From: Solidesulfovibrio sp.
GTDB lineage: Bacteria; Desulfobacterota; Desulfovibrionia; Desulfovibrionales; Desulfovibrionaceae
NCBI RefSeq assembly: GCF_038562415.1
Contig: NZ_JBCFBA010000029.1
Span: 1 to 56,177, forward strand
Direction: 5' to 3'
Length of the DNA: 56,177 nucleotides
Part shown: positions 1-56,171 of the stretch, in pieces
How positions within the stretch are numbered: the first letter of the stretch is position 1
How the letters are laid out: the number at the start of each line of letters is the position of its first letter
Notes under the pieces: model-generated
The model's database searches: none
The model's input: the letters and a program-made list of their open reading frames with translations, nothing else
What the model was told of the DNA's origin: nothing
Program-made: the position numbers and the translations under genes

Positions 1-157
1 GGCGAGCTGGCCGGCTTTGCGGCCTGCACCGCCCGGGGCGATTGCGCGACCACAACGGCCGACGCCTCGCCGCCCGCCGTTCCCGACCACGCCTCCACCC
101 GCCCCGTCGGGGGGGACCGGGGGGGATCATCCCCCCCGGCCGCCGGAGGCATCTTCC
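1..157 (-). repeat. Palindromic repeat, copy A (long form, cut by window edge)
   Basis: GC-rich repeat with a perfect hairpin at 117-139 (nine-base arms around ATCAT), followed by the family signature GGCCGCCGGAGGC at 138-150. Positions about 69-150 are nearly identical to the reverse complement of copy B (8413-8500). Positions 1-137 match, in inverted orientation, the last 137 or so bases of the window (copy F); the first 37 bases are identical. The element probably continues beyond position 1. No gene is supported in 1-210. Confidence 0.8.
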
Positions 158-164
158 TGCTTTT

Positions 165-215
165 GCCTCTTCTCCAACTCCGACTCCAAATCCAACTTCT
201 ACCCCAACTTCTACT
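165..215. repeat. Degenerate CTCCAA-type simple repeat
   Basis: A pyrimidine-rich run on the plus strand made of imperfect six-base steps (CTCCAA, CTCCGA, CTCCAAAT, AACTTCTA). It lies just downstream of the stop codon of the small gene at 211-414 and abuts repeat copy A. It looks like slipped-strand expansion. No function is evident. Confidence 0.5.
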
Positions 216-414
216 TCTCGCCGCCGACACCGGCCGGGTCGGTGGGCAAGTAGACGACTTGCGCGCCGATGGCCTGGGCGATAGCGTCCAGTTCGCGCTT
301 GCGGATATGCTCGGCAAAGAATTTGATGTCGCCCGTGGCGGCGACGACGCGGTAGCGGGGCTTTTTTTCGCCCTTTTCGATCTTGCGGCGCTCGCGCGCG
401 AAAATCTGGGACAT
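211..414 (-). CDS. Small conserved-looking basic protein
   Basis: A 67-residue protein starting MSQIFARERRKIEKGEKKPR. The N-terminal third is strongly basic (RERRKIEKGEKKPR), and the middle has alternating hydrophobic strands (YRVVAATGDIKFFAEHIRK). No signal peptide, membrane segment or cysteine is present. The start has a GGAGGTGAACC ribosome site. It is divergent from the PadR gene, and the PadR operator lies between them, so it may be a PadR target. The family is not recognised and the function is unknown. Codon use and a clear start support it as real. Confidence 0.65.
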   Translation of the reverse strand: MSQIFARERRKIEKGEKKPRYRVVAATGDIKFFAEHIRKRELDAIAQAIGAQVVYLPTDPAGVGGEK

Positions 415-7686: not shown

Positions 7687-8367
7687 ATGCGCAACCAAGG
7701 CCCGCCCGTGACGTACCGCATCCCCCTTGACGCCGTGGTCTTCGATTTCGACGGCACCCTGGCCGAACTGGTCATCGATTTTTCCGCCATGAAGGACCTG
7801 GTGGCGCGTTTCGCCGCCGGGCATCTGGCCGAGGTGCCGCCGGCCGACGGTCTGCCGGCCCTGGAATACGCCGGCCGGCTGGCCGGGCGCATCGCCGCGG
7901 TTTCCCCCGAGGCGGTCGAGGCGTTTTCGCGGGACGTGGCCAGGGGCATCCGGGACCAGGAGATCGAGGCGGCCGCCAAGGCGCGGCTTTTTCCGGCCAC
8001 CCGCAAGGCCCTCGCGCGGCTTGCCCGGGCCAAGGTCAAGGTCGGGATCATCACCCGCAACTGCCGGGCGGCGGTGCTCACGGTTTTCCCGGACCTGGCC
8101 GACTATGCCGGGGTGCTCGTGGCCCGCGACGACGCGGCCCGCGTCAAGCCCGACCCGCGCCACCTGCTGGACGCCCTGGGGGTCCTGGGGGCGCGGCCCG
8201 AGAGGTCGCTCATGGTCGGCGACCATCCCATGGACATCGCCACGGGCCGGGCCGCCGGGGCGCGCACGGCCGGCGTGGCCAGCGGCCGTACCTCGCTGGA
8301 AGAGCTGGCCCGCCATGGGCCGGACTACCTGGCCCCGGACGTCGGCGTGCTGGTGGCGATGCTGTAG
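7687..8367 (+). CDS. HAD-superfamily phosphatase (phosphoglycolate phosphatase-like)
   Basis: A 226-residue HAD hydrolase. Motif I is VVFDFDGTLAEL (nucleophile Asp about 20), motif II GIITRN, motif III with Lys in ARVKPDPRHLLDAL, and motif IV SLMVGDHPMDIATGRAAG. A helical cap lies between motifs I and II (about 35-105), the C1 cap arrangement of Gph-like phosphatases. The start is uncertain: ATG 7687 or GTG 7708 (MTYRIPLDAV), the latter with AAGG nine bases upstream. Substrates of such enzymes are small phosphorylated metabolites. The gene is divergent from the flavoprotein gene. Confidence 0.88.
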   Translation: MRNQGPPVTYRIPLDAVVFDFDGTLAELVIDFSAMKDLVARFAAGHLAEVPPADGLPALEYAGRLAGRIAAVSPEAVEAFSRDVARGIRDQEIEAAAKARLFPATRKALARLARAKVKVGIITRNCRAAVLTVFPDLADYAGVLVARDDAARVKPDPRHLLDALGVLGARPERSLMVGDHPMDIATGRAAGARTAGVASGRTSLEELARHGPDYLAPDVGVLVAML

Positions 8368-8410: not shown

Positions 8411-8505
8411 AGGCCTCCGGCGGCCGGGGGGGATGATCCCCCCCGGTCCCCCCCGACGGGGCGGGTGGAGGCGTGGTCGGGAACGGTGGGCGGCGCGACC
8501 ACGGG
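8411..8505 (+). repeat. Palindromic repeat, copy B (long form)
   Basis: Signature GCCTCCGGCGGCC at 8413-8425, then a perfect hairpin 8424-8446 (nine-base arms around ATGAT), then a module through about 8505 that matches copy A (69-116, inverted) almost base for base. It occupies the convergent gap between the HAD gene and glgB (8368-8564), which otherwise holds nothing recognisable. Part of it may serve as a bidirectional transcription stop. Confidence 0.8.
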
Positions 8506-8564
8506 CGCCAGCGGCGAAGCGCCGCATTTGAAAGGCCTTCAAAAACAATTCCTCACCCTCACCG

Positions 8565-18704: not shown

Positions 18705-19931
18705 TTAGGGCGCGACGGAGATGGCCCTCGCCGCGAAGCGACGGATGAAGCGCCGGTCGATGGCGTCCTTGAGGGCCATGCACCAGCGGCCTTCGAGGAC
18801 GAGCGGCCCCTTGCGCAGGATGGCCCGGCCGTCGCCGCAATTGAGCAGTGACAGGAAGTTTTGGCCCGTCTTGCCAAAGGGGGTCAGTTGCCGGCCGGTG
18901 AGGAAGGCCAGCAGGTTGGCGAAAAGCACCGGCCCCTGGCGCACGGCGTAGACTCCGGCCCGGGGCAGGGGGGCGGGCGCGAAATGGATGCAGTCGCCGC
19001 CGCCGAAGATTTCCGGGAAAAGCGGGCTTTGCAGGAAGGCGTTGACCGAAAGCCCGCCGTCCGGCCCCAGGGCCAGGCCGGCCTGGGCGAAAAGCTCCGG
19101 TGGCCGTGTGCCCGTGGCCACCAGGCAGACGTCGCAGCGCACGCCGCCGCCGTCGGCCAGTTCCGCCCGGTCGCCCCGCAGGCGCGTCACCCGGCCGGTG
19201 ATGCGGCGCGCCCCGCGCCGGGCAAGGGCTGCATGGGCCAGCCGCCGGGCCCTCCCCGGCCAGCCGCACAGCAGCCCCCGGCCGGTGACCACGGTCACCA
19301 GCGGTTTTTTCACGCCCAATCCCGTCAACAGCCCCAGGGTGTTGCCCGCGACCTCGAAAGCCGACGTTCCGCCGCCGACCACCAGCACCTGCACGGCTTC
19401 GCCGGCCTCGACCCGGGATTCGATCGCGCGCCGGGCGAGCAGCAGGTTCTCGATGGGTTTGACCGGATAGACGCCGACGCCGGGCGAGGCGTCCACGGGA
19501 AACGGCGGCGCCACGACACTGCCGATGCCGAAGCTTACGGCGTCGTAGCGTATCTCCCGGCCGTCCGCCAAACGCAGCCGCCGCGCTTCGGGATCGATCC
19601 CGGCCACGCTCCCCCGCACGAACGCCCCCACTCCCTTTCCCCCCCCGCCAGGGGGTCCGGGGGGGATGATCCCCCCCGGTGGGGTGGTCCAGGAGGGGCG
19701 ACGCCCCTCCTGGCCGCCGGAGGCCTCCCGCACCATCCGCTCCACATCGAAGCGCAGTTCGGCCGGGGCGTAGCGGCCGGAAAGCATGCCCGGCCCCATG
19801 CCGGAATAGGACAGGTGGGGGCTCGGGGCGACGCAGGTGACGTCGATGCCGGCCTCGAAAAAGGCCGCGAGCCGCGACAGGGTGAACAGGTGGGCATGGC
19901 CGCCGCCGCAAAGGACAAGATGCCTGCGCAT
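18705..19931 (-). CDS. FAD-dependent pyridine nucleotide oxidoreductase with repeat insert
   Basis: A 408-residue NDH-2/SelD-N-type flavoprotein: FAD site HLVLCGGGHAHLFTLSRL, SYSGMGPGMLSG, NAD site VQVLVVGGGTSAFEVA, LVATGTRPPELF and the C-terminal FAD motif IFGGGDCIHF. Residues 69-100 (EASGGQEGRRPSWTTPP onward) are Gly/Pro-rich, unlike the rest, and coincide exactly with palindromic repeat copy C. Without them the strand FDVERMVR joins GAFVRGSVAGID as in the family. The insert lies in a surface loop before an FAD-domain strand, so the enzyme may stay active. Related proteins reduce quinones, polysulfide or selenium compounds. ATG 19931. Confidence 0.87.
   Translation of the reverse strand: MRRHLVLCGGGHAHLFTLSRLAAFFEAGIDVTCVAPSPHLSYSGMGPGMLSGRYAPAELRFDVERMVREASGGQEGRRPSWTTPPGGIIPPGPPGGGGKGVGAFVRGSVAGIDPEARRLRLADGREIRYDAVSFGIGSVVAPPFPVDASPGVGVYPVKPIENLLLARRAIESRVEAGEAVQVLVVGGGTSAFEVAGNTLGLLTGLGVKKPLVTVVTGRGLLCGWPGRARRLAHAALARRGARRITGRVTRLRGDRAELADGGGVRCDVCLVATGTRPPELFAQAGLALGPDGGLSVNAFLQSPLFPEIFGGGDCIHFAPAPLPRAGVYAVRQGPVLFANLLAFLTGRQLTPFGKTGQNFLSLLNCGDGRAILRKGPLVLEGRWCMALKDAIDRRFIRRFAARAISVAP
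19638..19730 (-). repeat. Palindromic repeat, copy C, inside the FAD oxidoreductase gene
   Basis: Two perfect hairpins: 19657-19679 (nine-base arms around ATGAT) and 19689-19713 (twelve-base arms around a single A). The signature GGCCGCCGGAGGC follows at 19712-19724. The element is read in frame with no stop, in the sense giving EASGGQEG. Its first 23 bases in the coding direction are identical to copy D in the lytic transglycosylase gene. Confidence 0.85.
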
Positions 19932-26356: not shown

Positions 26357-28639
26357 ATGCGAAGGACGGGAATTGTCCCCTACTCCGATCAATTTTGTTT
26401 GGTATTGTCAACCCTGGTTGTCGTGGCCCTTGCCCTCGCCTCGCCGCCGGCTTTCGCCGCCGCCGGACAGGCCTGGGATCCGCCGCAAAAACCGGCCGCC
26501 ACCCCCCTGCCGCGCTCGGCCAGGTTCGGCGCCGCCGTGGACCGCACGGCCAAATCCCCGGCCGGCGAAGCCACGCCGGCCGGCTACGAGACCGTGCTCG
26601 GCGTCAACGAGGTGCTCTCCGGCAAGCACAAGGAAGGCGCGGCCAGGCTCGCCGCCGTGGCCGGCCGGGCCGGGGCGCTGGCCGATGTGGCCGCCTACTA
26701 CCTGGGCCTTGGCCGTTTCCTGTCCGGCGACGCGCCGGGCGCCGCGGCCGCCCTGGCCGGCCTGGCCGAGGCGCCCCAGGCCTCGTTTCTCGGCCGCGAC
26801 GCCCAGTACCTGGCCCTGGAGGCCGCCTCCCGGGCCGGCGACAACACGCGCGCCCTGGCCCTGGCCGAGGCCTGGCTGACCGAGGCCGACCCGACGCTGG
26901 CTCCGGAAGCCTGGCTGCGGGCCGCGGTTGCCGCCAACGCCTTGGGCCAGCGGCGCAAGGCCGCCGATTTCCTGCGCCACCTGTCGCTCGCCTGGCCCGA
27001 CGCCCAGGCCGCCCAGGCCGGCAACGCCCTGGCCCGGGCGATGTGCGGGGAGATGGGACGGGGGGAAGCCTCCGGCGGCCAGGAGGGGCGGGGCCCCTCC
27101 CGGACCTCCCCGAAAGGGGGGGGAGAGGCGTGCTATGACCCCGATACGCCGGCGAACGTGCTGCTGCGGGCCGAGGCCATGGTGGAGAAGGGCGCGCCCG
27201 AAGCGGCGCTCAAACTGCTGGAGGGCAAATGGCCCTTCGACGCCGGCCAGGCCGCCCGGGCCGAATACGTGCGGGGCAAGGCCCTCTACCGCCTGCGCCG
27301 GTTCAAGGCCGGGGCCGAGGCGTTTGCCCGGGCGGCCGGGGCCGATCCGGCGGCGCCCTTGGCCGGCTGGGCGCGCTATCACGAGGCGCGCTGCCTGTGG
27401 CGGTCCTTCGAGGCCGCCGACCTCGACCGCATGGAGGCGCTGCTGCGCCAGGTCCTGGCCGCGCCCGGGCGCGACGATCCCCTGCGCGAGGTGGCGGCCC
27501 GGCACCTGGCCCTGCTGCTGGTCGAGCGCGGCCGCTTTCCCGAGGCCCTGGCCGCCGCCGGCCAGCTCAAGGGGCTGGCCGTCAGCCCGGATTTGGCCGC
27601 CCAGGGCGCCACGCTCACGGCGCTGCTGCGCTTCGTCACCGGCGACCTGGCCGGCGCCGTGGCCGATCTGGCCGCCTTCCCCGAGCGCTTTCCCGAGGAC
27701 GACTGGGCCGACGGGGCGCGCTACTGGCGCGGCAAGGCGCTCGCCGCCCAGGGCAAGCCCGAGGAGGCGGCCAGGGCCTACCTGGACGTCCTGTCCCGGC
27801 GGCCCAACAGCTACTACGGCGGCCGGGCCCAGGCCGCCCTGGCGGCCATGGGCCGGTCCGTGGGCCCGGGGGTGGTGGCCTCGCCCGTGCGCGAGGGGCC
27901 GCGCTGCCCGGGCCGGGGCGAGCCGGCCTCGGCGCCCGCCGCCGCCGCCCTGGCCAAGGCCCGGCTCCTGGCCGATTCGGGCCTGCCGGCCCTGGCCGAG
28001 ATGCAGCTCGATTTCGCGGCCAGGGCCATGCCCGACCGGGCCGACCTGGCCATGGCCCACATCGAGGCGGCCGAGGCCATGGGCCGGCGCGGCGCGGTCC
28101 TGCGCACGGCCTGGCGCACCTTCGGCGGCTGCCTCGCGCGCGGCACGGCCGGGGATTTGCAGCCCCTGCGCCAGGCGCTTTACCCGCGCGCCCACGCCGG
28201 GCTGGTGACCGCCGCCCTGGCCGGCTCGGGCATCGACCCGGACATCGTCTCGTCGCTGATCCGCCAGGAGAGCTTTTTCGATCCGGACGTGGTTTCCGGG
28301 GCCGGGGCGGTGGGGCTCATGCAGCTGATGCCGGACACGGCCCGGGCCGTGGGCGCCAAGCTTGGCCTGAAGGTCGATCGCCAGGCGCTGTTCGACCCGG
28401 CCGTCAACATCAGGCTCGGGGTGGCCTTTTTCCGGGAGCGCGTGGCCTCGGCCGGCAGCCTTTCCGCGGCCTTGGCCGGCTACAACGCCGGGCAGAACCG
28501 GGCGGCGGTCTGGACGCGGGGATTCGGGGGCCTGGGCGAGGAGCTTTTCACGGAACTGATCCCCTACACCGAGACACGGGACTACGTGCGGCGCATCGAC
28601 GCCAACGCCATGATGTACGGCCGGCTCTACGGGCGCTGA
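26357..28639 (+). CDS. Soluble lytic murein transglycosylase (Slt70-like) with repeat insert
   Basis: A 760-residue exported enzyme that cuts peptidoglycan glycan strands to anhydro-muropeptides. A signal segment (about 10-35) is followed by a long superhelical TPR-like region (about 70-580) and a C-terminal lysozyme-like domain with catalytic Glu in SLIRQESFFDPDV, then GAVGLMQLMPDTA, NIRLGVAFF, ALAGYNAGQNR and PYTETRDYVRRI. Residues 237-257 (EASGGQEGRGPSRTSP onward) coincide with palindromic repeat copy D and interrupt the helical region before CYDPDTPANVLL. ATG 26357 lacks a good ribosome site. The gene is divergent from tmcD and ends overlapping cheW by 13 bases. Confidence 0.9.
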   Translation: MRRTGIVPYSDQFCLVLSTLVVVALALASPPAFAAAGQAWDPPQKPAATPLPRSARFGAAVDRTAKSPAGEATPAGYETVLGVNEVLSGKHKEGAARLAAVAGRAGALADVAAYYLGLGRFLSGDAPGAAAALAGLAEAPQASFLGRDAQYLALEAASRAGDNTRALALAEAWLTEADPTLAPEAWLRAAVAANALGQRRKAADFLRHLSLAWPDAQAAQAGNALARAMCGEMGRGEASGGQEGRGPSRTSPKGGGEACYDPDTPANVLLRAEAMVEKGAPEAALKLLEGKWPFDAGQAARAEYVRGKALYRLRRFKAGAEAFARAAGADPAAPLAGWARYHEARCLWRSFEAADLDRMEALLRQVLAAPGRDDPLREVAARHLALLLVERGRFPEALAAAGQLKGLAVSPDLAAQGATLTALLRFVTGDLAGAVADLAAFPERFPEDDWADGARYWRGKALAAQGKPEEAARAYLDVLSRRPNSYYGGRAQAALAAMGRSVGPGVVASPVREGPRCPGRGEPASAPAAAALAKARLLADSGLPALAEMQLDFAARAMPDRADLAMAHIEAAEAMGRRGAVLRTAWRTFGGCLARGTAGDLQPLRQALYPRAHAGLVTAALAGSGIDPDIVSSLIRQESFFDPDVVSGAGAVGLMQLMPDTARAVGAKLGLKVDRQALFDPAVNIRLGVAFFRERVASAGSLSAALAGYNAGQNRAAVWTRGFGGLGEELFTELIPYTETRDYVRRIDANAMMYGRLYGR
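27063..27127 (+). repeat. Palindromic repeat, copy D, inside the lytic transglycosylase gene
   Basis: Signature GCCTCCGGCGGCC (27068-27080), then a hairpin GGAGGGGC-GGG-GCCCCTCC (27082-27100) and a G-rich end. Same orientation to the gene and same reading frame as copy C in the FAD oxidoreductase, giving EASGGQEGR in both proteins. Confidence 0.85.
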
Positions 28640-39203: not shown

Positions 39204-40687
39204 GCCGCGCGCTCCCCGGCCGTGGCCCGGCCGGTCATCAGGTCGCCCACCTTGGCCGGATCGAGGCTGGCGGCGGGCAGGTCGGCGGCCATGTCGCGGT
39301 TGTAGAAGACCAGCACCCGGCCGGCGTGGGCGAGCAGCTCGTCGAGGTCCTCGGAGAAAAAGACCACGGCCGCGCCGGCCGCGGCTCGCTCCCGGAAATG
39401 GTCCCAGATCTGGGCGATGGAGGCGGCGTCCAGGCCCCGGGTGGGATTGTCGGCCAAAAGGAGTGTGGTGTCGTCGGGAATCAGCGACAGGAGCAAGCGC
39501 TGCTGGTTGCCGCCGGACAGGGAATCGGCCCGGGCGTCGGGGGTGTTGGTGAGGCGAAAGCGGCCCACGCAGCGCTCGGCGAAAATGGCCCGCGCCTCCT
39601 TGCGCCGGTCGGGGAAGGCCAGGCGCACGTGGTCGAGGAGGCTGAGCCCGGCGAAAAGCCCTTCCTCCATGCGGGCGGCCGGCAGGTAATGGACGCCGGC
39701 GGCGAGGAAACCGGTGGCCGGCTTGCCGGCCAGGGCCTTGCCGGAAACTTCCAGGGAGCCGGCCACGCACGGGGCGATGCCGGCCAGGCCGCGCAGCAGG
39801 GCTTCCTGGCCGCCGCCGGAAATGCCGGCCAGGCCCACGATCTCGCCGGGAAAAACCTCCAGGCCCACATCGGTCAGCACGGCCTTGTCGTCGGCGATGA
39901 CCAGGCCCTCGGCGCGCAGGAGCGGCGCGGCCGCGGCGGCCGGCCTGGGCGGCGGGGGCGGCGCGGCCTCGGCCAGGGAGGCGGCCTCGGCCCCGAACAT
40001 GGCCGTGAGGATGGCCTGGCCGTCCAGCGGGGCGGCGAACGTTCCGGCCAGCTTGCCGTGGCGCAGGATGAAGACCTCGTCGCACAGTTCCCTGGCCTCG
40101 GCGAGCTTGTGGGTGACCAGGGCGACCAGGCGTTGCCCGTCGGCGACGAAGGCCCGCAGCACGGCGAACAGCGTCTTTTTCTGGGCCGGGGAGATGCCCG
40201 AGGTCGGCTCGTCGAGAATGAGCAGGCGCACGTCGCGGTCGAACAGCCGGGCCAGCTCCAGGTGCTGGCGCTCGGCCACGGTCAGGTCGGCCACGGCGGC
40301 TTCCGGACGCAGGCAAAAGCCCATGCGCTCGCAGACCGCCCCGAGCCGGGCGCGGGCCTCGGCCCGGGTCAGGACGGGCCCGCCGCCCAGGGCGAAATTC
40401 TCCCAGACGGCCAGCGGCGGGAAATCCAGCGGGTCCTGGGGCAGCATGCCGATGCCCAGGCCCGCCGCCTCGTCCGGGGTCAGCCGGGCGCGCGCGGCGC
40501 CGTCCACGAGGATCTCGCCCCCGTCCGGGGCGTGCTGGCCGCACAGCACGCGCATGAGCGTGGACTTGCCGGCGCCGTTTTCCCCGAGCAGCCCGTGGAT
40601 GCGCCCGCCCCGCAGGGTCAGGCTCACGTCGTCGTTGGCCACAAGCGCCCCGAAGCGCTTGACGATATGGGAGAGGGCGACATCCAC
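39200..40687 (-). CDS. ABC transporter ATPase, tandem NBDs (BMP-type importer)
   Basis: A 495-residue protein with two fused ATPase domains. The N-terminal domain has an intact P-loop (GLLGENGAGKSTLMRVL, residues 33-47), LTVAERQHLELARLF and RLLILDEPTSGIS. The C-terminal domain has a degenerate P-loop (LAGISGGGQEALLRGL) but a good signature and Walker B (LSGGNQQRLLLSL, LLLADNPTRGLD). This asymmetry is normal for sugar and nucleoside importers. ATG 40687 lies 22 bases after the binding-protein gene. Confidence 0.94.
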   Translation of the reverse strand: MDVALSHIVKRFGALVANDDVSLTLRGGRIHGLLGENGAGKSTLMRVLCGQHAPDGGEILVDGAARARLTPDEAAGLGIGMLPQDPLDFPPLAVWENFALGGGPVLTRAEARARLGAVCERMGFCLRPEAAVADLTVAERQHLELARLFDRDVRLLILDEPTSGISPAQKKTLFAVLRAFVADGQRLVALVTHKLAEARELCDEVFILRHGKLAGTFAAPLDGQAILTAMFGAEAASLAEAAPPPPPRPAAAAAPLLRAEGLVIADDKAVLTDVGLEVFPGEIVGLAGISGGGQEALLRGLAGIAPCVAGSLEVSGKALAGKPATGFLAAGVHYLPAARMEEGLFAGLSLLDHVRLAFPDRRKEARAIFAERCVGRFRLTNTPDARADSLSGGNQQRLLLSLIPDDTTLLLADNPTRGLDAASIAQIWDHFRERAAAGAAVVFFSEDLDELLAHAGRVLVFYNRDMAADLPAASLDPAKVGDLMTGRATAGERAA

Positions 40688-40708
40688 GGGCAGGCTCCGG
40701 GGGATCGG

Positions 40709-41887
40709 TTACTTGGAGGCGCTGGCGCCTTCCATGCCCTTGAGCAACTGCGGGCAAAACCACAGTTCCTTGTCCGTGGCCGAGCGGCCGGCCGGCACGA
40801 AAACCGTGCCGTCCTGGTAGGCCAAGGGGCCGGCGAAGAGGTCCACCTTACCCGCGCCCAGGTCGGCCACGAACCGGTCCAGGGCCTGCTTGTTCTCGGC
40901 GGAAAGGGCCTGGCCGGGCAGGAAGCCGACCGGGCTCTTGTCCGGGTCGTTTAGGGCGGCGAAATCCGGGGACAGCCACTCGAAGGCCGGCTTGTAGGTG
41001 CCTTCGGCCACGGCCTTGGCGATGGCGAGCAGCGGCGGGCCCCAGTTGAAGTAGGGCACGCCGAGGCAGGCCTCGGGGGCGCCGCCGCAGGCCTCCTTGA
41101 AGTCGTAGGGCAGGGCATACACGTCGGCGCCGGCCTTGCGGCGGCTGGCGGCCACGGTCAGGGCTTCGGGGGTGTCGATGCCGGAAATGATCACGTCGTA
41201 GCCCTGGTCGAAAAACGAGCCGGCCACCTGGTTGGGGTCGGAGGTCACGCCCGGGATGTTGAACCAGAAGCCGATCCAGGTGACCTTGAACGACAGGGCC
41301 TCGGGTTTAAGGCCGCGCACCTTCTCCCAGGCGTAGCGCGCGCCGAGGTAGGCGGCGTCGGCCAGGCGGCGGGTCTCGTCGTTGATCAGCGGCCCCAGGA
41401 AGCCGATCTTGCCGGTCTTGGTGGTCATGGCCGCGGAAAAGCCGGCCATCATCTTGGCGTATTCCATCTTGGAGAAGACGTTGCCCAGGTTTTTCGGGGC
41501 CTTGCCCGTGAGCACGTCGTCGCCGGAAATGTGGACGAAGGTCAGTTCCGGGTGCTGTTCGGCGGCTTCGCGGATGCCGTCCTTCATGTCGTCGGAGCCG
41601 GCGAAAATAAGCGTCGCGCCCTTGGCCACCAGGTCGTCCACCACCTGGGGGATGGTCACGCCGGGCCGGTCGGCCGGGTTGACCTTGTCGAGGTAGAGCA
41701 TCTTGGCCCCGGGCAGGTGGGCCTCGACGTATTTGCCGCCCTCGTACTGGGCCTGGCTGTAGCCTTTGTCGTTGTAGGGGCCGACCAGCAGCAACCCGAA
41801 GGTCAGGGGTGTTTCGGCGGCCTGGGCGGAAGCGGCGAGGGCCAGGCACAGGGCCAGGATGGCCGGAAGGAAGCGGGCGGGGCGCAT
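40709..41887 (-). CDS. BMP-family substrate-binding protein
   Basis: A 392-residue exported protein: signal peptide MRPARFLPAILALCLALAASAQA, then the BMP (PnrA/Med) fold with TFGLLLVGPYNDKGYSQAQYEGG, ATLIFAGSDDMKDGI, GFLGPLINDETRRLADAAYLGARYA and DVIISGIDTPEAL. The signal lacks a lipobox, so it is a free periplasmic protein rather than the lipoprotein form usual in Gram-positives. PnrA-like proteins bind purine nucleosides; the closer ligand here is unproven. AAAGGAG precedes ATG 41887. First gene of the importer operon. Confidence 0.92.
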   Translation of the reverse strand: MRPARFLPAILALCLALAASAQAAETPLTFGLLLVGPYNDKGYSQAQYEGGKYVEAHLPGAKMLYLDKVNPADRPGVTIPQVVDDLVAKGATLIFAGSDDMKDGIREAAEQHPELTFVHISGDDVLTGKAPKNLGNVFSKMEYAKMMAGFSAAMTTKTGKIGFLGPLINDETRRLADAAYLGARYAWEKVRGLKPEALSFKVTWIGFWFNIPGVTSDPNQVAGSFFDQGYDVIISGIDTPEALTVAASRRKAGADVYALPYDFKEACGGAPEACLGVPYFNWGPPLLAIAKAVAEGTYKPAFEWLSPDFAALNDPDKSPVGFLPGQALSAENKQALDRFVADLGAGKVDLFAGPLAYQDGTVFVPAGRSATDKELWFCPQLLKGMEGASASK

Positions 41888-41963
41888 GGGGTTCTCCTTT
41901 GGGCGCTTGGATGCGGGCAATGTAAAAAAAGCGGGCGCGTTGCGCCAGGGGGGCCGGGCCATC

Positions 41964-43028
41964 TCAGGACCGTCCCGGCAGCAGGCCGTGGCGCAAAAAA
42001 TCCTCGACCAGGGAAAAGACGGTTTCGTTGCCGCAAAAACGGCCGCCGGCGATGCGGTCGCGCCGGGCGGGGAGGCCTTTTTCGAAATCGGGGAGCAGTT
42101 CGGGCGTCAGCCGGCCCATGGAGGCCATCCGGCCGTAGCCCAGGCGCTCCAGGTAGAGGGCGTTTAACTGCTGCTCGAAGGCTCCGGCCACGGGGAAGGA
42201 CAGGACCGGCTTGCCGTAGAAAAGCGCCTCGCTCATGAGGTTGTGGCTGCCGCCGCAGATGACGTAGGCGCAGGAGGCCAGGTCGTCGAGAAAGCCGTCC
42301 TCGGAATAGTCGCGGAAGGTCAGGTTGCCGTCGACCTGGTCCTTCTTGTAGCCGTAGACGCGAAATTCCCGGTCCATGCGGCGAAGGAAGGGGGCGAAGG
42401 CGTCGCAGATGCCGCAGCTTTGGTAGACCAGGATGTGGCTGCCGTCGGTCGGGCGGCGCTCCAGGACGCTTTGGCGCAGGATGGCCGGGGCCAGGCGGGC
42501 CCGGGCGCCGGGCTTGGGGGGCGGCTGGTAGAAGGAGATGGCCAGGTAGTCGGTGGCGGCGGAAAAAAGGAAGCGGATGGAGGCCCGGATGCCCCAGTAG
42601 TCGGGCAGAAGCCGCCAGGGCACGTCGTGGTCGCAGCAGGAGATGACGTGCTGGTGGTCGATGGACAGGCAGGGGATGCCGGCTTTTTTCGCGGCGATGG
42701 GCACGAAGTATTCGTAGTCGGAGATGGCCCGGTCGGGCTTGAAGGCGGCGATGAGCCCGGCCAGGCGGGCCAGTTCCGCGCCGCGCCGGGCCAGGGTGCG
42801 GCCGGCCAGGCGCAGGGTGGCCGGGGTGTCGAGCTTCTGGTTCCTGTAGCGGGTACCGGGGTTTTCGAACCGTTCCACCGGGAATTCCCGGGACAGCAGC
42901 CCCGCCCCCTCCTCGCTGGAGACGAACAGGAATTCGTGGCCCTTCGCCCGCAGGTGGCGGGCCAGGATGAGGGCGCGGATGGCGTGGCCGTGCTGGGTGC
43001 CGTGCACGCCGTAGAGAATGCGGGCCAT
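41964..43028 (-). CDS. GT28-like glycosyltransferase (MJ1255/VC2487 type)
   Basis: A 354-residue GT-B protein starting ARILYGVHGTQHGHAIRALILARHL, a motif of the MJ1255/VC2487 family. Other marks are LFVSSEEGAGLL, SDYEYFVPIAAKKAGIPCLSIDHQHVIS and the donor-binding YVICGGSHNLMSEALFYGKPVLSFPVAGAFEQQLNA, like MurG/GT28. It would transfer a nucleotide-activated sugar at the cytoplasmic membrane face. ATG 43028 was chosen over a longer, low-quality N-terminus; GGAGGA lies 11 bases upstream. An acyltransferase gene is upstream on the same strand. Confidence 0.88.
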   Translation of the reverse strand: MARILYGVHGTQHGHAIRALILARHLRAKGHEFLFVSSEEGAGLLSREFPVERFENPGTRYRNQKLDTPATLRLAGRTLARRGAELARLAGLIAAFKPDRAISDYEYFVPIAAKKAGIPCLSIDHQHVISCCDHDVPWRLLPDYWGIRASIRFLFSAATDYLAISFYQPPPKPGARARLAPAILRQSVLERRPTDGSHILVYQSCGICDAFAPFLRRMDREFRVYGYKKDQVDGNLTFRDYSEDGFLDDLASCAYVICGGSHNLMSEALFYGKPVLSFPVAGAFEQQLNALYLERLGYGRMASMGRLTPELLPDFEKGLPARRDRIAGGRFCGNETVFSLVEDFLRHGLLPGRS

Positions 43029-43146
43029 GGTTGGGGCTGTCCTCCGGCAAGGGGCCGCGCCCGCAAGCGGACGACGGTTGCAGGGACGTGTAAGGGGCGG
43101 GGCGGCCGGCGTCAATGGCGGGGGCGGCGCTGTCCGGGCCTGACGG

Positions 43147-43869
43147 CTAGAACAGCCAGATGTGTTCCAGTTCCTCGCCGTGGCGGCCCTCGGTGCGGCG
43201 TTCGCGCAGGACCGTGGCCGGCCGGCCGGCCACGACCATGTTTTCCGGCACGTCGTGGGTGACGAGCGCCCCGGCGGCCACGATGGCCTGCGCGCCCACG
43301 GTCACGCCCGGCAGGATGGTCGCGCCGGAATAGACCTTGGCATAGTCGCCGACGACCACCGGGGCGTAGAGGCGCTCGATGTGCGAGGCCTCGCCGTGGC
43401 TGTGGGTGTAGACGCGCACGTCCTCGGCCAGGGCCACGCCGTCGCCGAGGGTGATGCCGCCCTTGGTGTCCAGGAACACGTTGCGGTTGACGAACACCCC
43501 GGCCCCCACCCGCAGCAGCGGCCCGAAATTAAATCGCAGGTTCTCCTCGGCGGTGAAGGCGCTGCCGCAGGCCCCGAACAGCCGGTGGGCGATCAGCCGG
43601 CGCAGGGGGATGGCGAAGGGGACGATGAGGGAAAGCGGCAGCTTGTCGAAGGCGTCCCACAGGAAATGCAGGTGGCGCAGGGCCGGGGTGAGCGGACAGT
43701 CCTCGGCCCGGGGCAGGGTTTCGGCGTACAGGCGCAAATGGCACAACAAGTCCAGGGACAGGCGCGGGGCGTCGAGGGTGGCCAGGACGTCCTGAAGGAC
43801 TTCCGGGTCCTCGATGTTGTCCAATCGTTCGGCGATCCGCTCCAGGCGGGCCTTGAAGCAACTGGTCAT
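43147..43869 (-). CDS. Left-handed beta-helix acyltransferase
   Basis: A 240-residue protein. A helical N-terminal region (about 1-95) precedes hexapeptide-repeat coils (about 115-230): LLRVGAGVFVNRNVFLDTKGGITLGDGVALAEDVRVYTHSH, then VVVGDYAKVYSGATILPGVTVGAQAIVAAGALVT and GRPATVL. This is the maltose/galactoside O-acetyltransferase type with the catalytic His in YTHSH. AGGAGAGACC precedes ATG 43869. It probably O-acetylates a sugar or lipid intermediate made by the neighbouring glycosyltransferase, as inferred from position only. Confidence 0.9.
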   Translation of the reverse strand: MTSCFKARLERIAERLDNIEDPEVLQDVLATLDAPRLSLDLLCHLRLYAETLPRAEDCPLTPALRHLHFLWDAFDKLPLSLIVPFAIPLRRLIAHRLFGACGSAFTAEENLRFNFGPLLRVGAGVFVNRNVFLDTKGGITLGDGVALAEDVRVYTHSHGEASHIERLYAPVVVGDYAKVYSGATILPGVTVGAQAIVAAGALVTHDVPENMVVAGRPATVLRERRTEGRHGEELEHIWLF

Positions 43870-44045
43870 GGTCTCTCCTGGGTTGGGGACGATGGGCAAC
43901 GCCGTCCCTGGCGTGTCGTGTCCGAAAGGACGTTTCCGCCGGGCGGACCAATGGCGGCCCATGATGCCAAGGCCGCGAGTTCCCGGTCAAGGGCCGCGGC
44001 GGTTGTCCGCCGTGTTGCCCCTCGAAACCCTGGTTTCCCTGCCGG

Positions 44046-46217
44046 CTATGGTTTCTGGCCGGCCTGGCGCAGCAACCGGCCGTAGAGCCTGGCCGCTTCG
44101 GCGTAGTCGGGCCGGGAGGCGACCACCGGGCGCAACACGGCCAGGGCCTCGCCGGACTGGCCGGACCGGGCCAGCAGGAAGGCCAGGGCGTAGGCGTAGC
44201 GCGGGTTGTCGGGGCGCAGGCCACCGGCTTGCCGGGCGAAACGCAGGGCATCCTCGGGGTTGGTCGCGGCCAGCAGCAGGCCCAGGTTGAAGTGGGCCGG
44301 GGCGTCGTCCGGGGCCAGGCGCAGGGCCTCGGCCAGGGCCTGCTCGGCCGCCTCGGGCTGGCCCAGGCGGCCCAGGGCGATGGACAGGTTGACCAGCGGG
44401 GCCACGGCGGCCGGGTCCAGGAGCCGGGCCTTTTCGTAATACCCCACGGCCCGTTGCGCATCGCCCTGGCCGAGGGCGTGGTTGCCCAGGTTGTACTGCG
44501 AGGTCCACAGGTCCGGCCGGGCCGCAAGCGAAGCCAGAAATTCCGCGGTGGCCCGTTCCACGGCCGGAAGCGAAGTCGCGTCGAGGGCCTGGCGCGGCAC
44601 CCCGGACAAGGCCGCCGCCGCCCGCACGCGCACCAGCCGGTAGTCGTCGGCGCAAAGCCGCACCAGGGCCGCCAAGCCCTCGGGCGTGGGGCCATCGGTG
44701 AGCGCCTCGGCCGCCGCCGCCCGCACCAGGGGCGAGGGGGCCGAGGCGGCGGCCACTATCGCCGGCCACTTGCGCCCGTCGGCACAGGGCCGCAGCAGGC
44801 GCAGGAGCGAGGCGGCATAAACGGCGTCGCTTTTGCCGTCCGCCACGCAATCGAGCATGGCCGCAAGGCCCGACCAGTCGCCGCGCCGGGCGGCGGCGAC
44901 CAGTTCGGCCCGGGCCAGGACCGGGGCCTGGTAGTCGTTTGCGTGCCAGGCCCGGACCTGCCCGTCGGCCCAGGCCGCGTCCTTGTCGGCGTGGCAGAGG
45001 GTGCAGGCGTTGGGCGAGCCGTAGGCCAGGGTCGCCGCCGGGGTGGGCGGCAGCATGGAGTGGTCGCTACGGCGCATGCGGGCGAATTCCGTGGCGGGCA
45101 TGTGGCAGGACACGCAGCGGTTGCCGGGGCTGCCCTCGGGGTGGCGGGTGTGGCTTGAGGCGTTGTCCACCCGGTCGGCGTGGCAGGGCTTGCAGGCGTC
45201 GTTGGCCTTGGCCGGGTCGGCGAATTTGTAGCGGCCGCTGGAGGTGTGGCAGTGCATGCAGTCGAGCTGGCCGGACAAGGCGCAGGGGCTGCGGGCCCAG
45301 GAGGTCATGGTGTAGTTTTCGCCCAGGTCGCGGCCGTCGGGGTGGAAGTCCGGGTTTTCGTAGCCGATGAGGTCGAAGTGGTCGAAGTAGCGCTCGCCCG
45401 GGGCGAAGGAGACGGTCAGGGGCACGGTTTTGGCGTGGCAGGCGCCGCACAGGTCGTTTTGCTGGGCGTGGGTGAAGGCGCTGCCGCCCCGGATGAGCTT
45501 CATGTCCTTGGGCGGGTTGTTCTTGGGCGCGGCCTGGCAGACGCGGATGTGTTCCTGGCCCGGGCCGTGGCAGGTCTCGCAGTTGATGCCGGGTTCGGTC
45601 CAGGTGGTCGCGTAGGTGTCGGTTCGGGGGTCGTAGTTGGTGGAAAGCTGGCTGACGTGGCAGCCGTAGCAGCCGGTATTGAAGGTGTAGGGCCAGTCCT
45701 TCCAGGAGAGCGTCGGGCTTGGGCCGCCGGGGAAGTGGCGCGCGGCGCTGCCGGCCATGTCGTACCACTGCTTGCGGCGCACGTCGTAGGCGAGCGGCAG
45801 GGTCTGCAACCGGCCCCGCTCCAGGGGGGTCAGGAAATAGAAGACGTTCTTGCCGCCGAGGACCTGGGCGATGGGGTAGGTCTTGGTCTGGCCGTCGGTG
45901 CGCTCTTCCAGGAAGCCCTCGCCGGCGCCCAGGCGCATGCGGTAGGCGGCCTGGCCGATGACGATGTCCGCCTCCTGGGGGCCAAGCAGCGACGCGGCCA
46001 AGGCGTCGTCGTAGGGGCGCATGGCCAGGCCGTGGAAGGAGGTGGACCAGAGCTTGTAGAATTTCTCGTGGCAGTCGCGGCAACTGGCCGAGCCGGTGAA
46101 GGCCGGGGCGGCCGGGGGAGGAGCGGCTTTTTGGGCGGGTTTGGCGGAAGCTTCCGGGACGGCCAAGACGGAACCGAGACAGAGGACGAGGGCGGGGAGG
46201 TGCATCCAGTGGGGCAT
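44046..46217 (-). CDS. Exported octaheme cytochrome c with HEAT-like and TPR repeats
   Basis: A 723-residue periplasmic protein with signal peptide HLPALVLCLGSVLAVPEASA. Eight CxxCH sites at about 46, 183, 213, 257, 320, 342, 368 and 405 fit the cytochrome c554/nitrite-reductase-related multiheme type. Residues 440-570 are Ala/Leu-rich helical repeats (HEAT-like: SPLVRAAAAEAL, YRLVRVRAAAAL). Residues 590-720 are three or four TPRs (SQYNLGNHALGQGDAQRAVGYYEKA, VNLSIALGRLGQPEAAEQAL). Heme and protein-binding parts are fused, so it may dock partners for electron transfer. The start is uncertain (ATG 46217, weak ribosome site). Confidence 0.9.
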   Translation of the reverse strand: MPHWMHLPALVLCLGSVLAVPEASAKPAQKAAPPPAAPAFTGSASCRDCHEKFYKLWSTSFHGLAMRPYDDALAASLLGPQEADIVIGQAAYRMRLGAGEGFLEERTDGQTKTYPIAQVLGGKNVFYFLTPLERGRLQTLPLAYDVRRKQWYDMAGSAARHFPGGPSPTLSWKDWPYTFNTGCYGCHVSQLSTNYDPRTDTYATTWTEPGINCETCHGPGQEHIRVCQAAPKNNPPKDMKLIRGGSAFTHAQQNDLCGACHAKTVPLTVSFAPGERYFDHFDLIGYENPDFHPDGRDLGENYTMTSWARSPCALSGQLDCMHCHTSSGRYKFADPAKANDACKPCHADRVDNASSHTRHPEGSPGNRCVSCHMPATEFARMRRSDHSMLPPTPAATLAYGSPNACTLCHADKDAAWADGQVRAWHANDYQAPVLARAELVAAARRGDWSGLAAMLDCVADGKSDAVYAASLLRLLRPCADGRKWPAIVAAASAPSPLVRAAAAEALTDGPTPEGLAALVRLCADDYRLVRVRAAAALSGVPRQALDATSLPAVERATAEFLASLAARPDLWTSQYNLGNHALGQGDAQRAVGYYEKARLLDPAAVAPLVNLSIALGRLGQPEAAEQALAEALRLAPDDAPAHFNLGLLLAATNPEDALRFARQAGGLRPDNPRYAYALAFLLARSGQSGEALAVLRPVVASRPDYAEAARLYGRLLRQAGQKP

Positions 46218-46488
46218 GGCGTGCGTTCCGTGGACGGTTGGAATTTCGCCTCCCGCTGCCGGTCGGGCATCGGGTGGTAACGGCCGGCTCGCGGAAACCA
46301 TAGCATGGGTGCCACCGGGCTTGGAACAGCCTCGGCGGCGGTATCCTCCCCCTGGTGCGGTGGCGACGGCCGGTCGCTGCGGCGGAGCCGTTCGGCCGGT
46401 ATCGGGAACCGGGGGGCGGTTGGCCGCCGCTCCCCGGCCCCGACGCCGGCCAGGCCGGCCTGGGCGATGCGCTCGCGAACGCGGCAGG

Positions 46489-47079
46489 TTACCAAGTGGT
46501 GCAGGAATAAGGCTGCGGGCATTTCTCCAGGAACATGATCACGTCGTTGAAAAGAACGATCTTGTCCTGTTCGCTGAGACGTTCGATAGCGAGCCGGTAG
46601 TAGTGATCATAGCTGCAGCGGGTATTGTCGGCGGCATCGCGAATGTGGTTGTACCACCATTTGGCCACGTCACGCAGCGCATCCGCGGCCATATGATCCA
46701 CGATGTGGTAGGCCTTTCCCGTCGTCATCTCTACCTGGGCTTTGAGCGGCAGCATGAACGTACTGATGAATTTGGTGTGTGCCGTCAAATGTCCGGTATA
46801 GACATTTTCCGGGAAGGAGAATTTTTCCACAAGAATTTTCAGGAGGCCCTCTTCCAGGGTGAAATGCGAGCAGGAAAAAAGATCAAGGAAGGAAAATTTT
46901 TTTTGCATGTATTCGATGCAGCTAAGTTGCGGAATCCTGTTGTTGATGATTTCCGTGTGCCATGTGTTGATGAATCGGAGAATTCCCTTGTGCTGGCAGT
47001 TTATTATATCGATGACGCAGTCGTAGCTCTTCTTCCATGTGATGAACTCGACAATCGGGGCCGGGGATTCCTGCTGCAT
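46489..47079 (-). CDS. Bacteriohemerythrin
   Basis: A 196-residue cytoplasmic di-iron O2-binding protein. The full ligand set is visible: His in IINCQHKGILRFIN, H and E in HFTLEEGLL, two His in HLTAHTKFI, and His/Asp in WWYNHIRDAAD. It extends about 45 residues beyond the core with YDHYYRLAIERL. AAAGGA precedes ATG 47079. It is less GC-rich than most of the window and uses AT-ending codons, which may mean transfer or low expression. In anaerobes such proteins bind or sense O2. It stands alone between the octaheme cytochrome and alaS. Confidence 0.9.
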   Translation of the reverse strand: MQQESPAPIVEFITWKKSYDCVIDIINCQHKGILRFINTWHTEIINNRIPQLSCIEYMQKKFSFLDLFSCSHFTLEEGLLKILVEKFSFPENVYTGHLTAHTKFISTFMLPLKAQVEMTTGKAYHIVDHMAADALRDVAKWWYNHIRDAADNTRCSYDHYYRLAIERLSEQDKIVLFNDVIMFLEKCPQPYSCTTW

Positions 47080-47330
47080 GATACATCCTTTTGCAGAAGG
47101 TTCTGGAAAATCTTGAGACCGAACGGCGCGTGATGCCTCCTGAAATTCGTTTTTCGGCGTGCCCGGCGACGGCACTGGTTACCGAGATTGTCTGTTTCCC
47201 TAGCTTTGCCAAAGAAAAAAGTAAACGCTCGATCTCGGAATTGAGGGTGCACCGGAAGTGTCCCACCGAAAAGGGGGTCTGGGGCCATGTCCTTGCGGTG
47301 TTGACCGCCAAGCCAAGCCGGCGGCGTGTC
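47080..47330. other. Intergenic region upstream of the hemerythrin gene
   Basis: The gap between hemerythrin and alaS is 310 bases; the alaS terminator takes 47331-47365. No gene is supported here. There is a perfect 11-base palindrome CTTTGCCAAAG near 47204-47214 and an A/T-rich patch (47214-47226) that may hold a minus-strand promoter for hemerythrin, but no good -10/-35 pair is visible. Confidence 0.4.
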
Positions 47331-47365
47331 AAAAAAACAGGGCGGCCCCCTGTGGGGCCGCCCTG
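47331..47365 (-). terminator. Intrinsic terminator of alaS
   Basis: Twelve-base perfect arms CAGGGCGGCCCC (47338-47349) and GGGGCCGCCCTG (47354-47365) with loop CTGT, followed on the minus strand by seven T residues (47331-47337). It lies 25 bases after the alaS stop. Confidence 0.92.
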
Positions 47366-47389
47366 GCTGCGTCGTATGAAAATCGCTTC

Positions 47390-50029
47390 CTAGCCGGCCA
47401 CGGCCGCCTTGACCTTGGCGAAGGCCTCGTCGATGCCGGCCGGGTTGGTGCCGCCGGCTTGGGCCATGTCCGGCCGGCCGCCGCCGGAACCGCCCACCGC
47501 CGCCGCCGCGTCCTTGATGATGGCCGGGGCGGTGAACCGGCCGTGCAGGTCCTTGCTGACGGCCACAATGAGGCTCACCTTGCCGCCGTCCTGCTCGGCG
47601 GCGATGGCGATAACCCCCGAGGGAACCTTGCTGCGCAGGTCGTCCATGGCCTCGCGCAGGGCTTTCACGTTGGGCGCGTCTACCCGGGCGCACAGCAGCT
47701 GCACGCCGCCGACCTCCTCCAGCCCGGCCAGCAGGTCGCGGCCCTGGCCCGAGGCCAGCTTGGCGGCGAGCTGCTCTTTTTCCTTGCCCAGGGCCTTGAT
47801 CTCGTCCTGGAGCTTTTTGACGCGCGAAACCAGCTCCCCGGGCCGGGCCTTGACCGCGTGCAGGGCCTCGTCGAGCTCGCCGCGCATGGCCCGCATCTGG
47901 GCCAGGGCATTGAACCCGGTGGCCGCCTCGATGCGGCGCGTGCCGGCGGCCACGCCCGATTCGGACAGAATCAGGAAGCTGCCGGCCTGGCCCGTGGCCC
48001 GCAAGTGCGTGCCGCCGCAAAATTCCATGGACACGCCCGGCACTTCCACCACGCGCACGGTCGCGCCGTATTTCTCGCCGAAAAGCGCCGTGGCGCCCTT
48101 GGCCCGGGCCGCCTCGATGGCCAGGACCTCGGTCGTGACCGGCGCATCGAGCAAAATGGCCGCGTTGACCGCGTCCTCGACCCTGGCCAGCTCCTCGGCG
48201 GTCATGGCCGCGCCGTGGGTGAAGTCGAAGCGCAGCCGGTCCGGGGTGACCAGCGAGCCGGCCTGGTTGACGTGGTTGCCGAGCACGTCCTTGAGGGCCT
48301 TGTGGAGCAGGTGGGTGGCGGTGTGGTTGCGGGCCGTGGCGGCGCGCACGGCCGGGTCCACGGCCAACTCCGCTTCCTGGTCGAGGAGGACCTCGCCCTT
48401 TTGCACCGTGATGTGGTGGGCGGTCAGTTCCGGGCCGGCCTTGATGGTGCCGGTGACGGCCGCGTCGCCGGTCAGGGTCGTGATGGCGCCCACGTCGCCG
48501 GCCTGGCCGCCGGATTCGCCGTAAAAGGGCGTGACGGCGGTGACGAGATAGCCGGTCTGGCCGGCGGTCAGGCGCTCCACGGCCTGGCCCTCGGCGGAAA
48601 TGAGCGCGTTGACCCGGCTTTGGGCGGCCGTCGCCTCGTAGCCGACAAAGCGCGACTGCATGCCCGATTCGAGCAGCTCCAGAAACAGCACGGCCGGGTC
48701 GGTCTCGCCGCTGCCCTTCCAGGCCGCCTTGGCCCGGGCCTTCTGCTCGGCCATGCACACGCGGTAGCCGGCCTCGTCGGCGGCCAGGCCGCGCTTGCCG
48801 GCCACGTCGTTGACGATGTCCAGCGGAAAGCCGTAGGTGTCGTAGAGCTTGAAGGCGAAGGCGCCGGTGATGACCGTCTCGCCGGCGGCTTCCAGACGGT
48901 CGAGTTCCTCGGCCAGGATGGCCAGGCCCTTGTCGAGCGTCACGCCGAAGCGCTCTTCCTCCTCGCGCACCACCCGCTCCATGAAGTCGCGGCTGGCCAC
49001 CAGTTCCGGGTAGGCCTCGCCCATGACGTCCACCACCGTGCCGGCGGTCTTGTAGAGAAACGGATCGGACAGGCCGATGAGTTTGCCGAAACGCAAGGCC
49101 CGGCGGATCAGCCGGCGCAGCACGTAGCCCCGGCCCTCGTTGGAGGGCATGACGCCGTCGGCCAGGAGAAAGGCCACCGAACGGCTGTGGTCGCCGATGA
49201 CGCGCAGCGCCGTGTCGCTTTCCTCGTCCGCGCCGTAGGTCACGCCGGCGATGCGGGCGGCCGTGGCGATGATGGTCTGGAACAGGTCGATGTCGAAATT
49301 GGAGTGCACGCCCTGGACCACGGCGGCAATGCGCTCCAGGCCCATGCCGGTGTCGATGCTGGGACGTGGCAGGCCCACCCGGTTGCCCGGCTCGATCTGG
49401 TCGTACTGCATGAAGACCAGGTTCCAGATTTCCAGGTACCGGTCGCAGTCGCAGGTGCCGATGCCGCAGTTCGGGCCGCAGGCCATGGCTTCGCCCCGGT
49501 CGTACATGATCTCCGAGCAGGGGCCGCAGGGGCCGGTGTCGCCCATGGACCAGAAGTTGTCCTTCTCGCCCAGGCGGAAGATGCGGTCGTCGCTCAGGCC
49601 GGCGATCTTTTTCCACAGGCCGAACGCCTCGTCGTCGTCGAGGTAGACCGTGGCGTACAGGCGCGACTTGTCGAGGCCGATGACCTCGGTGAGAAACGTC
49701 CAGGCGAAGCGGATGGCGTCTTCCTTGAAGTAGTCGCCAAACGAGAAGTTGCCGAGCATCTCGAAGAAGGTGTGGTGGCGGGCGGTGCGGCCGACGTTTT
49801 CCAGGTCGTTGTGCTTGCCGCCCACGCGCAGGCACTTTTGCGAGGTGGTGGCCCGCTTGTAGCCGGGCTTGTCCTGGCCCAGGAAGACCTTCTTGAACTG
49901 GACCATGCCGGCGTTGGTGAAAAGAAGCGAGGGGTCCTCGCGCGGCACCAGCGGCGAGGAGGACACCAGTTGGTGCCCGTTGGCGACGAAGTAGTCCAGG
50001 AACTTGGCGCGAATCTCATTGGCCGTCAT
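47390..50029 (-). CDS. alaS: Alanyl-tRNA synthetase
   Basis: An 879-residue class II synthetase that charges tRNA-Ala. Motif segments: [53 protein letters not shown] and [11 protein letters not shown]. The editing domain has [12 protein letters not shown] and the zinc site EFCGGTHL. The C-Ala coiled coil and domain (about 700-879) is complete. Start is ATG 50029 or the adjacent ATG 50032. Longer frames reaching 50251 only translate palindromic repeat DNA and are rejected. It lies downstream of recA on the same strand across a repeat-filled gap. Confidence 0.97.
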
Positions 50030-50110
50030 CATCTCGTATGCCTCCGCATGGGGATGGAAGACCAAAGGACGCATCCCCCGCATCTTCCTCGAAATATAAA
50101 AGAGAAGAGC

Positions 50111-50331
50111 CAAAAGGGGCTTTGCCCCTTCTGGACTTCCCCATCGGGGGGGATGATCCCCCCCGAACCCCCTCGAAAGGGGTGGGGTCGCAATTGGGTT
50201 CCCGCCCACTTCCGTGGGGCCGAAAGGGCGTGGCCGCCGCAACCCGGCCACGCCCTTTCGGCCCCACCAGTGGGGAGGTCCAGGAGGGGATCATCCCCTC
50301 CTGGCCGCCGGAGGCATCTTCCCTCCGGACT
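50111..50331 (-). repeat. Palindromic repeat cluster, copy E, between recA and alaS
   Basis: The 302-base recA-alaS gap (50033-50334) is mostly stacked hairpins: AAGGGGC-TTT-GCCCCTT near 50115-50131; a seven-base-arm ATGAT hairpin near 50145-50165; a 22-base perfect stem at 50214-50235/50246-50267; and the family hairpin AGGAGGGG-ATCAT-CCCCTCCT (50282-50302) with signature GGCCGCCGGAGGC (50303-50315). No coding sequence is supported. These could slow or stop transcription from recA into alaS or protect RNA ends. Confidence 0.85.
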
Positions 50332-50334
50332 TTC

Positions 50335-51402: not shown

Positions 51403-51443
51403 CGGCCGTGCTCCTGGAAAAGGTGTATGGGCGCGAGGGCGGA

Positions 51444-51472: not shown

Positions 51473-51530
51473 CTTCGGCGGGGCGCGCAAACCCCTTGCC
51501 AGGCGGCCGGCAACCCCTTAGCTACGCCGC

Positions 51531-53336: not shown

Positions 53337-53375
53337 GGCGGCATCCTTTGGTACGTGCTGCTAGGCGGTTAAACG

Positions 53376-56007: not shown

Positions 56008-56171
56008 TCGGGGCTCCGCCCCGTACCCCGCCGGGAGGGGATGATCCCCTCCCGGACCCTCCCCGACGGGGCGAGTGGAACGTCGGGGACAACGTCGGGC
56101 GGCGGGGCGTCGGTCCATGTGGTCGCGGAATCGGCCCGGGCGGTGCAGGCCGCAAAGCCGGCCAGCTCGCC
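56008..56171 (+). repeat. Palindromic repeat, copy F (long form), inverted relative to copy A
   Basis: A GGGGC-TCC-GCCCC hairpin (56010-56022), then the family hairpin with ten-base arms around ATGAT (56031-56055), then the long module. From about 56035 to 56171 it matches positions 1-137 in inverted orientation at roughly 85-90 percent by eye, with 37 identical bases at the outer end. No gene is supported from 55988 to the end. Confidence 0.8.

Follow-up and report, generated by a model that had tools for sequence, protein, structure and literature searches.

What kind of element is a G+C-rich palindrome that recurs at six places in one contig, how did it spread and what keeps its two arms paired? 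These questions are raised by a 56,177-nt stretch of Solidesulfovibrio DNA (hereafter the window), which is the whole of contig C29 in a 5.07-Mb assembly of 51 contigs (genome G000). The RecA encoded in the window gave a 96% match to Solidesulfovibrio alcoholivorans. A reading of the letters alone (the sequence-only reading) had proposed a dispersed family of composite palindromic repeats, and a scan of the genome for further copies turned up many rather than few. The exact 13-nt tag GCCTCCGGCGGCC occurs 181 times (95 + 86), against 5 (3 + 2) for the reversed control pattern. The repeats are therefore real and genome-wide. The signature described for all six window loci was found at five, each of which carries the tag; locus F (56008–56171) is without it. 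The features of the window are as follows.

117..150, minus strand: element A; tag 138–150, hairpin about 117–139; 61 nt behind the codon-model gene 211–414 (minus strand)
1..116, minus strand: long-form module of A, ending at the contig end; loop core GGCCGCAAAGCCGGCC at 9–24
8413..8446, plus strand: element B; tag 8413–8425, hairpin 8424–8446; 45 nt past the stop codon of a HAD-hydrolase gene (7687–8367)
8447..8507, plus strand: shortened long-form module of B; the 95-nt likeness to A spans 8413–8507
18705..19931, minus strand: Pyr_redox_2 gene (Pfam E 9.1e-21), host of C in frame
19638..19724, minus strand: element C; tag 19712–19724, hairpin about 19689–19713, second, tagless hairpin about 19657–19679
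26357..28639, plus strand: TPR/SLT lytic transglycosylase gene (Pfam E 2.9e-25), host of D in frame
27068..27124, plus strand: element D; tag 27068–27080, hairpin 27079–27103, then a CCTCCCC-GAAA-GGGG hairpin
50110..50180, plus strand: distal inverted tagless unit of element E; 50134–50110 (minus strand) terminator-like in a scan
50214..50267, minus strand: central hairpin of E, 22 bp, with 22/22 pairs also in S. alcoholivorans
50280..50315, minus strand: first unit of E; tag 50303–50315, hairpin about 50280–50304; 20 nt past the recA stop codon
50335..51402, minus strand: recA, neighbour of E
56008..56171, plus strand: element F; tagless hairpins 56009–56023 and 56031–56055, then the long-form module with loop core 56148–56163, ending at the contig end

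The long module that A, B and F had been said to share is indeed common to them, A matching B over 95 nt at 94% and F over 81 nt at 91%. A and F are the opposite ends of one contig, and both ends (1–81 and 56091–56171) lie within the long-form module. Across the genome, 10 of 12 exact long-form loop cores are no more than 250 nt from a contig end, which indicates that the module is cut by assembly breaks; the long-form repeat itself seems to break the assembly, and the repeats account for many of its contig ends.

The anatomy of the unit was read from 845.6 kb of the same genome, window included (724 genes called by our own codon model, 88% coding), a sample partly centred on known tags, so that repeat density is not readable from it. 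The full tag is present at 64 of 72 GCCTCCGGCGG sites, and a hairpin by our criterion accompanies it at 61 of these. The unit is a fixed tag, a hypervariable hairpin and a GGACC-type tail: the hairpin takes in the last two C of the tag and closes with GG, and ACC follows in 53 of the 61. Upstream of the tag lies a purine tract, with 85% purine over 25 nt (30 units with room) compared with 48% in 395 control 3′ regions. In Solidesulfovibrio the tag usually follows such a tract, one that ends in GAAGAT; the tract is absent from the unoccupied genome at the one site compared and was mostly not seen at loci of other genera. The idea of a guide sequence, in which CCTCC of the tag pairs with an upstream GGAGG, was rejected, since GGAGG occurs in 13 of 60 tracts against 15.0 expected from shuffles. 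Units stand singly or as tail-to-tail inverted pairs, and seven outward-facing tag pairs were read by hand from the sample rows. In the congener G003, all three tags of one locus (L163, at 3916, 6030 and 8805) have in their hairpin slot a long AAACTTTTT stem that differs from the stems found in G000. A hairpin of the CCCCTTTTTTCAAAAAGGGG type, possibly a true terminator, lies farther behind units at C2:293180 and C3:249469 of G000.

Fifty-eight of the 61 units are intergenic, and 49 of these lie 7–90 nt past a same-strand stop codon; besides C and D, the units in genes comprise one that overlaps a called gene in its final 2%. Both neighbouring genes were called for 53 units: 28 of these point forward between genes of one direction, 9 are inverted, 16 stand between convergent genes and none lies in a divergent-gene gap, where 14.2 were expected by length (p 7e-8). 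A tagged inverted partner is present for 4 of the 9 inverted units. In ten other genomes, four of them of the same genus, 23 sightings (duplicates counted) at 20 loci comprised 10 units behind a same-strand gene, 11 inverted units, a single unit within a called gene and another that was left undecided, which suggests that strict orientation may fail outside G000; none of the 17 sightings with both neighbours called was divergent. The recA–alaS site, where E stands, is occupied at three further loci (L001, L002 and L004). In S. aerotolerans (L003, from about 4566), 430 nt behind recA hold other sequence and no tag.

Presence and absence at orthologous sites, which the sequence-only reading had put forward as a check, differ between species. 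Elements C and D lie in frame in their host genes, both of which keep their Pfam domain match. We compared the two sites in 12 genomes with usable loci (G001 and G006 of the genus gave fragments only). A unit stands at site D in four of them (G000, G002, G009 and G010), and the other 8 of the 12 have none there. Site C is occupied in the same four, although in another frame in G010 and as a hairpin only, at a contig edge, in G009; G003 and G011 have a short possible remnant, and 6 of the 12 are empty. Among the congeners examined, the six more distant ones have no unit at either site. The occupant of site D has a nested second hairpin in G002, G009 and G010 and a different, simpler form in G000, which indicates that a site can change its occupant. 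On the tree, G010 falls outside ((G003,G011),(G000,(G002,G009))); site D needs two changes and a single clade of D-occupied genomes is rejected (p-AU 0.0097), so that gain and loss at D are indistinguishable. In addition, G010 carries units at two intergenic sites that are empty in G000.

Neither transposition nor a target-site duplication or excision scar was recognised at these sites, whose occupied and empty alleles are too diverged to show a duplication. The differences between species nevertheless suggest that the units are mobile. No further in-frame copy emerged by codon score at 20 candidate loci chosen from open frames, a few of which read as C-terminal extensions. Units thus placed mark positions at which loops can be added to the proteins of these bacteria.

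The family extends well beyond one genome. Tag counts range from 117 to 363 across G000 and eight congeners; we give copy numbers as tag counts because the covariance-model counts, at least 150 in 11 of the 14 genomes scored, are lower bounds in those 11. The pattern of tag, 8–36 nt and GGANCC, which requires no hairpin, matches 73 of the 199 genomes scanned from the order; sorted by hand, these are 67 of 139 in the family Desulfovibrionaceae and 6 of 60 outside it, the latter with one match each. Stem sets differ between genomes among the matches listed. No Rfam 15 family reached its gathering score in the window, and the 211-nt E element had no match in plasmid and phage collections, where the BLAST low-complexity filter may mask some. 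A published description of the family was not found among the matches listed (titles and abstract openings, mostly of the open literature).

The family had been described as having stems that centre on ATGAT/ATCAT or a GC loop and whose two arms change together, and the alignments confirm this. The first hairpin was aligned in 58 distinct cores: 36 from G000 (those distinct among the 61 pre-selected for a hairpin) and 22 from five relatives, found by the tag alone and kept from 32 after 10 apparent near-duplicates were dropped. Of 559 cells, 98.2% are paired and 10 are unpaired. Double changes occur in 8 of the 10 pairs and one-sided changes in none, and 0 of 500 shuffles equalled either the pairing or the covariation score; the number of pair types was no higher than in shuffles (308/500). 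The arms therefore co-vary. The long-form hairpin around GGCCGCAAAGCCGGCC behaves likewise, with 19 of 24 pairs double-changed, 96.6% pairing and 0 of 500 shuffles as high, in the 11 of 20 distinct copies that have both arms complete (the other nine are cut by contig ends). At the recA–alaS site, the central 22-bp hairpin differs between G000 and S. alcoholivorans in two pairs, both double changes, while the adjacent recA is 90.7% identical.

G·U pairs are nearly absent from these stems. Counted among Watson–Crick and G·U pairs with the same scoring, they make up 1 of 636 in unit stems, compared with 24 of 287 in U-tract terminator hairpins and 4 of 74 in tRNA acceptor stems, both taken from the same genomic sample; the long-form hairpin has one in 262 cells. 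Among the matches listed, 102 distinct tag-to-tail strings of the family comprise 85 perfect stems and 66 distinct 5′ arms, with 1,051 Watson–Crick, 6 G·U and 14 other pairs. These strings were hand-picked from matches located through an exact tag and tail, and any that lacked a hairpin were excluded, so that a constant tag and some of the pairing follow from the selection itself. Selection on an RNA fold would tolerate G·U, and its near absence favours upkeep of the stems at the DNA level, although the G+C richness of the stems and the relatedness of copies can explain part of the low count.

The sequence after the hairpin resembles the mirror image of the hairpin. In 145 distinct elements from fetched loci, the mirror was ahead in 103 and the direct copy in 13, with 29 ties; by arm class (22 classes) the figures were 17, 3 and 2. 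When tails were dealt among class representatives, the mirror score was reached in 0 of 1,000 deals, and the copy score was not above chance (804/1,000). Anchored tests agreed, giving 198 against 162.6 (s.d. 4.0) for 40 distinct arm–tail pairs and 99 against 76.4 (s.d. 3.0) for 23 arm classes. Behind the long AAACTTTTT stem at 6030 of L163 (minus strand), 17 of 18 tail letters are the parallel complement of the arm, with one G of a G-run skipped. At 1320 of another locus (L178), an odd arm, CAAGAGG, is followed by the tail GTACTCC, 6 of whose 7 letters are the parallel complement of that arm. A triplex reading of the flank would suit purine arms and not the AAACTTTTT stems.

The sequence-only reading had suggested a RAYT-type helper elsewhere in the genome, and this found no support. 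That reading had also not noticed how the units are placed and oriented at gene 3′ ends, their two in-frame insertions in genes, the polypurine tract, the scarcity of G·U pairs or the mirror-like flank. Its statement that the window holds no transposase was checked for the Y1 and reverse-transcriptase families. Y1_Tnp (PF01797) has one match in G000, and the E. coli control was detected; it was not found in G003, G009, G010 or G012, two of which are both rich in units and highly contiguous (G003, one contig, 121 tags; G010, three contigs, 363 tags). Over 30 genomes, its presence does not correlate with tag count (Spearman 0.04, p 0.82), and none of eight Y1 loci has a tag at up to one mismatch within about 1.5 kb on each side (some flanks were shorter or partly masked). 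We rejected a RAYT helper on this distribution, and a reverse-transcriptase helper because RVT_1 was not found in 6 of 14 Solidesulfovibrio genomes (G003, G004, G005, G007, G011 and G012) with 117–305 tags each. The helper is probably something other than a Y1/RAYT protein. The sole Y1_Tnp match in G000 (L088 1501–1854; C1:85989–86342) has no tag nearby and, by its own hairpins as judged by eye, looks like an IS200/IS605-type element.

Taken together, these data make it probable that the units form a REP-like, non-autonomous palindromic repeat family typical of Desulfovibrionaceae. New copies would arise by way of a single-stranded hairpin intermediate or by repeat-to-repeat copying. The tag would be the constant part that is recognised, and the hairpin would serve structurally, its sequence being nearly irrelevant. 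Units would then persist mainly past stop codons, where they are presumably least harmful, and those that are transcribed would fold and could affect 3′ ends. One alternative is that they are host RNA elements (terminators, 3′-end protectors or intercistronic attenuators) that selection maintains for the fold of the transcript and that dispersed long ago or by gene conversion. The location of units just past stop codons, with none in the sample between divergent genes, speaks for this, as do the stability predicted for the folds of the six window loci (z −0.79 to −3.04) and the occupied recA–alaS sites. So does the distal inverted unit of E, which a terminator consensus scan of window positions 40001–56177 listed; that scan also listed one tagless hairpin of F but not the tagged first hairpin of E. 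Yet the first hairpin has almost no G·U and no one-sided changes, which sets it apart from terminators and tRNAs of this genome, a U-tract is usually missing behind it (by eye), copies stand in frame within genes and separate terminator-like hairpins lie farther downstream of some units (by eye), so that we regard an RNA role of this kind as unlikely. Somewhat better placed, though still doubtful, is the proposal that one arm is copied from the other by quasipalindrome-templated correction, in which case pairing needs no selection. It would account for near-perfect pairing with free choice of sequence, for double changes without intermediates and for the orthologous 22-bp hairpin, with two double and no single changes beside a recA that is 90.7% identical. 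It leaves the fixed tag, copy number, 3′-end placement, insertion and mirror-like flank unexplained; as it concerns upkeep only, it could be compatible with a REP-like family.

The remaining explanations concern the mover. In a classical REP/RAYT system, a TnpA-REP protein would move the units, and the anatomy is alike: a tag 5′ of the hairpin, inverted pairs and placement at gene 3′ ends. However, GTAG is absent, G003 and G010 have 121 and 363 tags and no Y1_Tnp, correlation is lacking over the 30 genomes, the eight Y1 loci are untagged and the only match in G000 resembles IS200/IS605, all of which makes this account highly improbable. Retroelement-like spread by a reverse transcriptase would suit units oriented relative to genes, but with RVT_1 not found in six tag-rich genomes of the genus we give it hardly any credence. 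It is also conceivable, if improbable, that the units are a third type of tagged palindrome beyond GTAG and CGTC, moved by some non-Y1 machinery that reads a constant tag and the fold, though not the letters, of the hairpin, with the mirror-like flank itself under selection. Polymerases cannot copy mirror symmetry, which on this third-type reading would point to selection on parallel-strand or three-stranded DNA structure, or to a two-sided protein contact.

A single family here combines strong co-variation, presence and absence that can be placed on a tree, species-specific stem sets and no RAYT link. These four traits together make two open questions testable: by what means repeats with no known transposase, the CGTC type for example, come to spread, and whether it is RNA function, recognition of the DNA hairpin or templated copying that preserves the pairing. 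Counting G·U pairs offers a simple test for other repeat families.

The closest known systems are GTAG-tagged REPs and BIMEs, with which REPINs are grouped. According to Di Nocera et al. 2013 (PMC3733652) and Corneloup et al. 2021 (PMC8266576), GTAG-tagged REPs and BIMEs are short palindromes with a one-sided fixed tag, present in many copies, adjoining gene 3′ ends, located mainly in unidirectional and convergent intergenic regions, with inverted pairs and some intragenic copies. The Solidesulfovibrio units share the one-sided tag, inverted pairs, some intragenic copies and, as in REPs, high copy number (181 tags), a mostly extragenic location (58/61) and gene 3′ ends (0/53 divergent). As in BIMEs, they occur in inverse orientation (7 outward-facing tag pairs; 4 of 9 inverted units partnered). 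They differ in a 13-nt tag without GTAG, which was found beside the palindrome in 0 of 61 units on either side, in the missing RAYT link, in near-perfect stems that vary widely by copy and species, in the purine tract of Solidesulfovibrio and in the mirror-like flank. No cognate, flanked RAYT of the kind that defines a REPtron was found (no Y1_Tnp in the unit-rich G003, G010 and G012; 0/8 loci tagged), and the units are for that reason not classed as REPtrons. CGTC-tagged repeats, including Rickettsia RPE-4 and RPE-6, have no known dedicated transposase and include in-gene copies (PMC3733652). The in-gene, in-frame copies C and D, with their empty orthologues, are similar, but such copies are rare here (3/61 in the sample), and CGTC occurs in 0 of 61 units on the tag side and 2 of 61 on the other. 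With both tags missing, we class the family neither as GTAG REPs nor as CGTC repeats. Like intrinsic terminators, the units are G+C-rich hairpins behind genes, but they usually lack a U-tract behind the first hairpin (by eye), have far fewer G·U pairs and also occur in coding sequence. Like MITEs, they are non-autonomous, dispersed and foldable, but neither the terminal inverted repeats of a known transposase nor target-site duplications were recognised, the alleles being too diverged for the latter. The unit works as a REP does: it is a tagged, dispersed hairpin behind genes.
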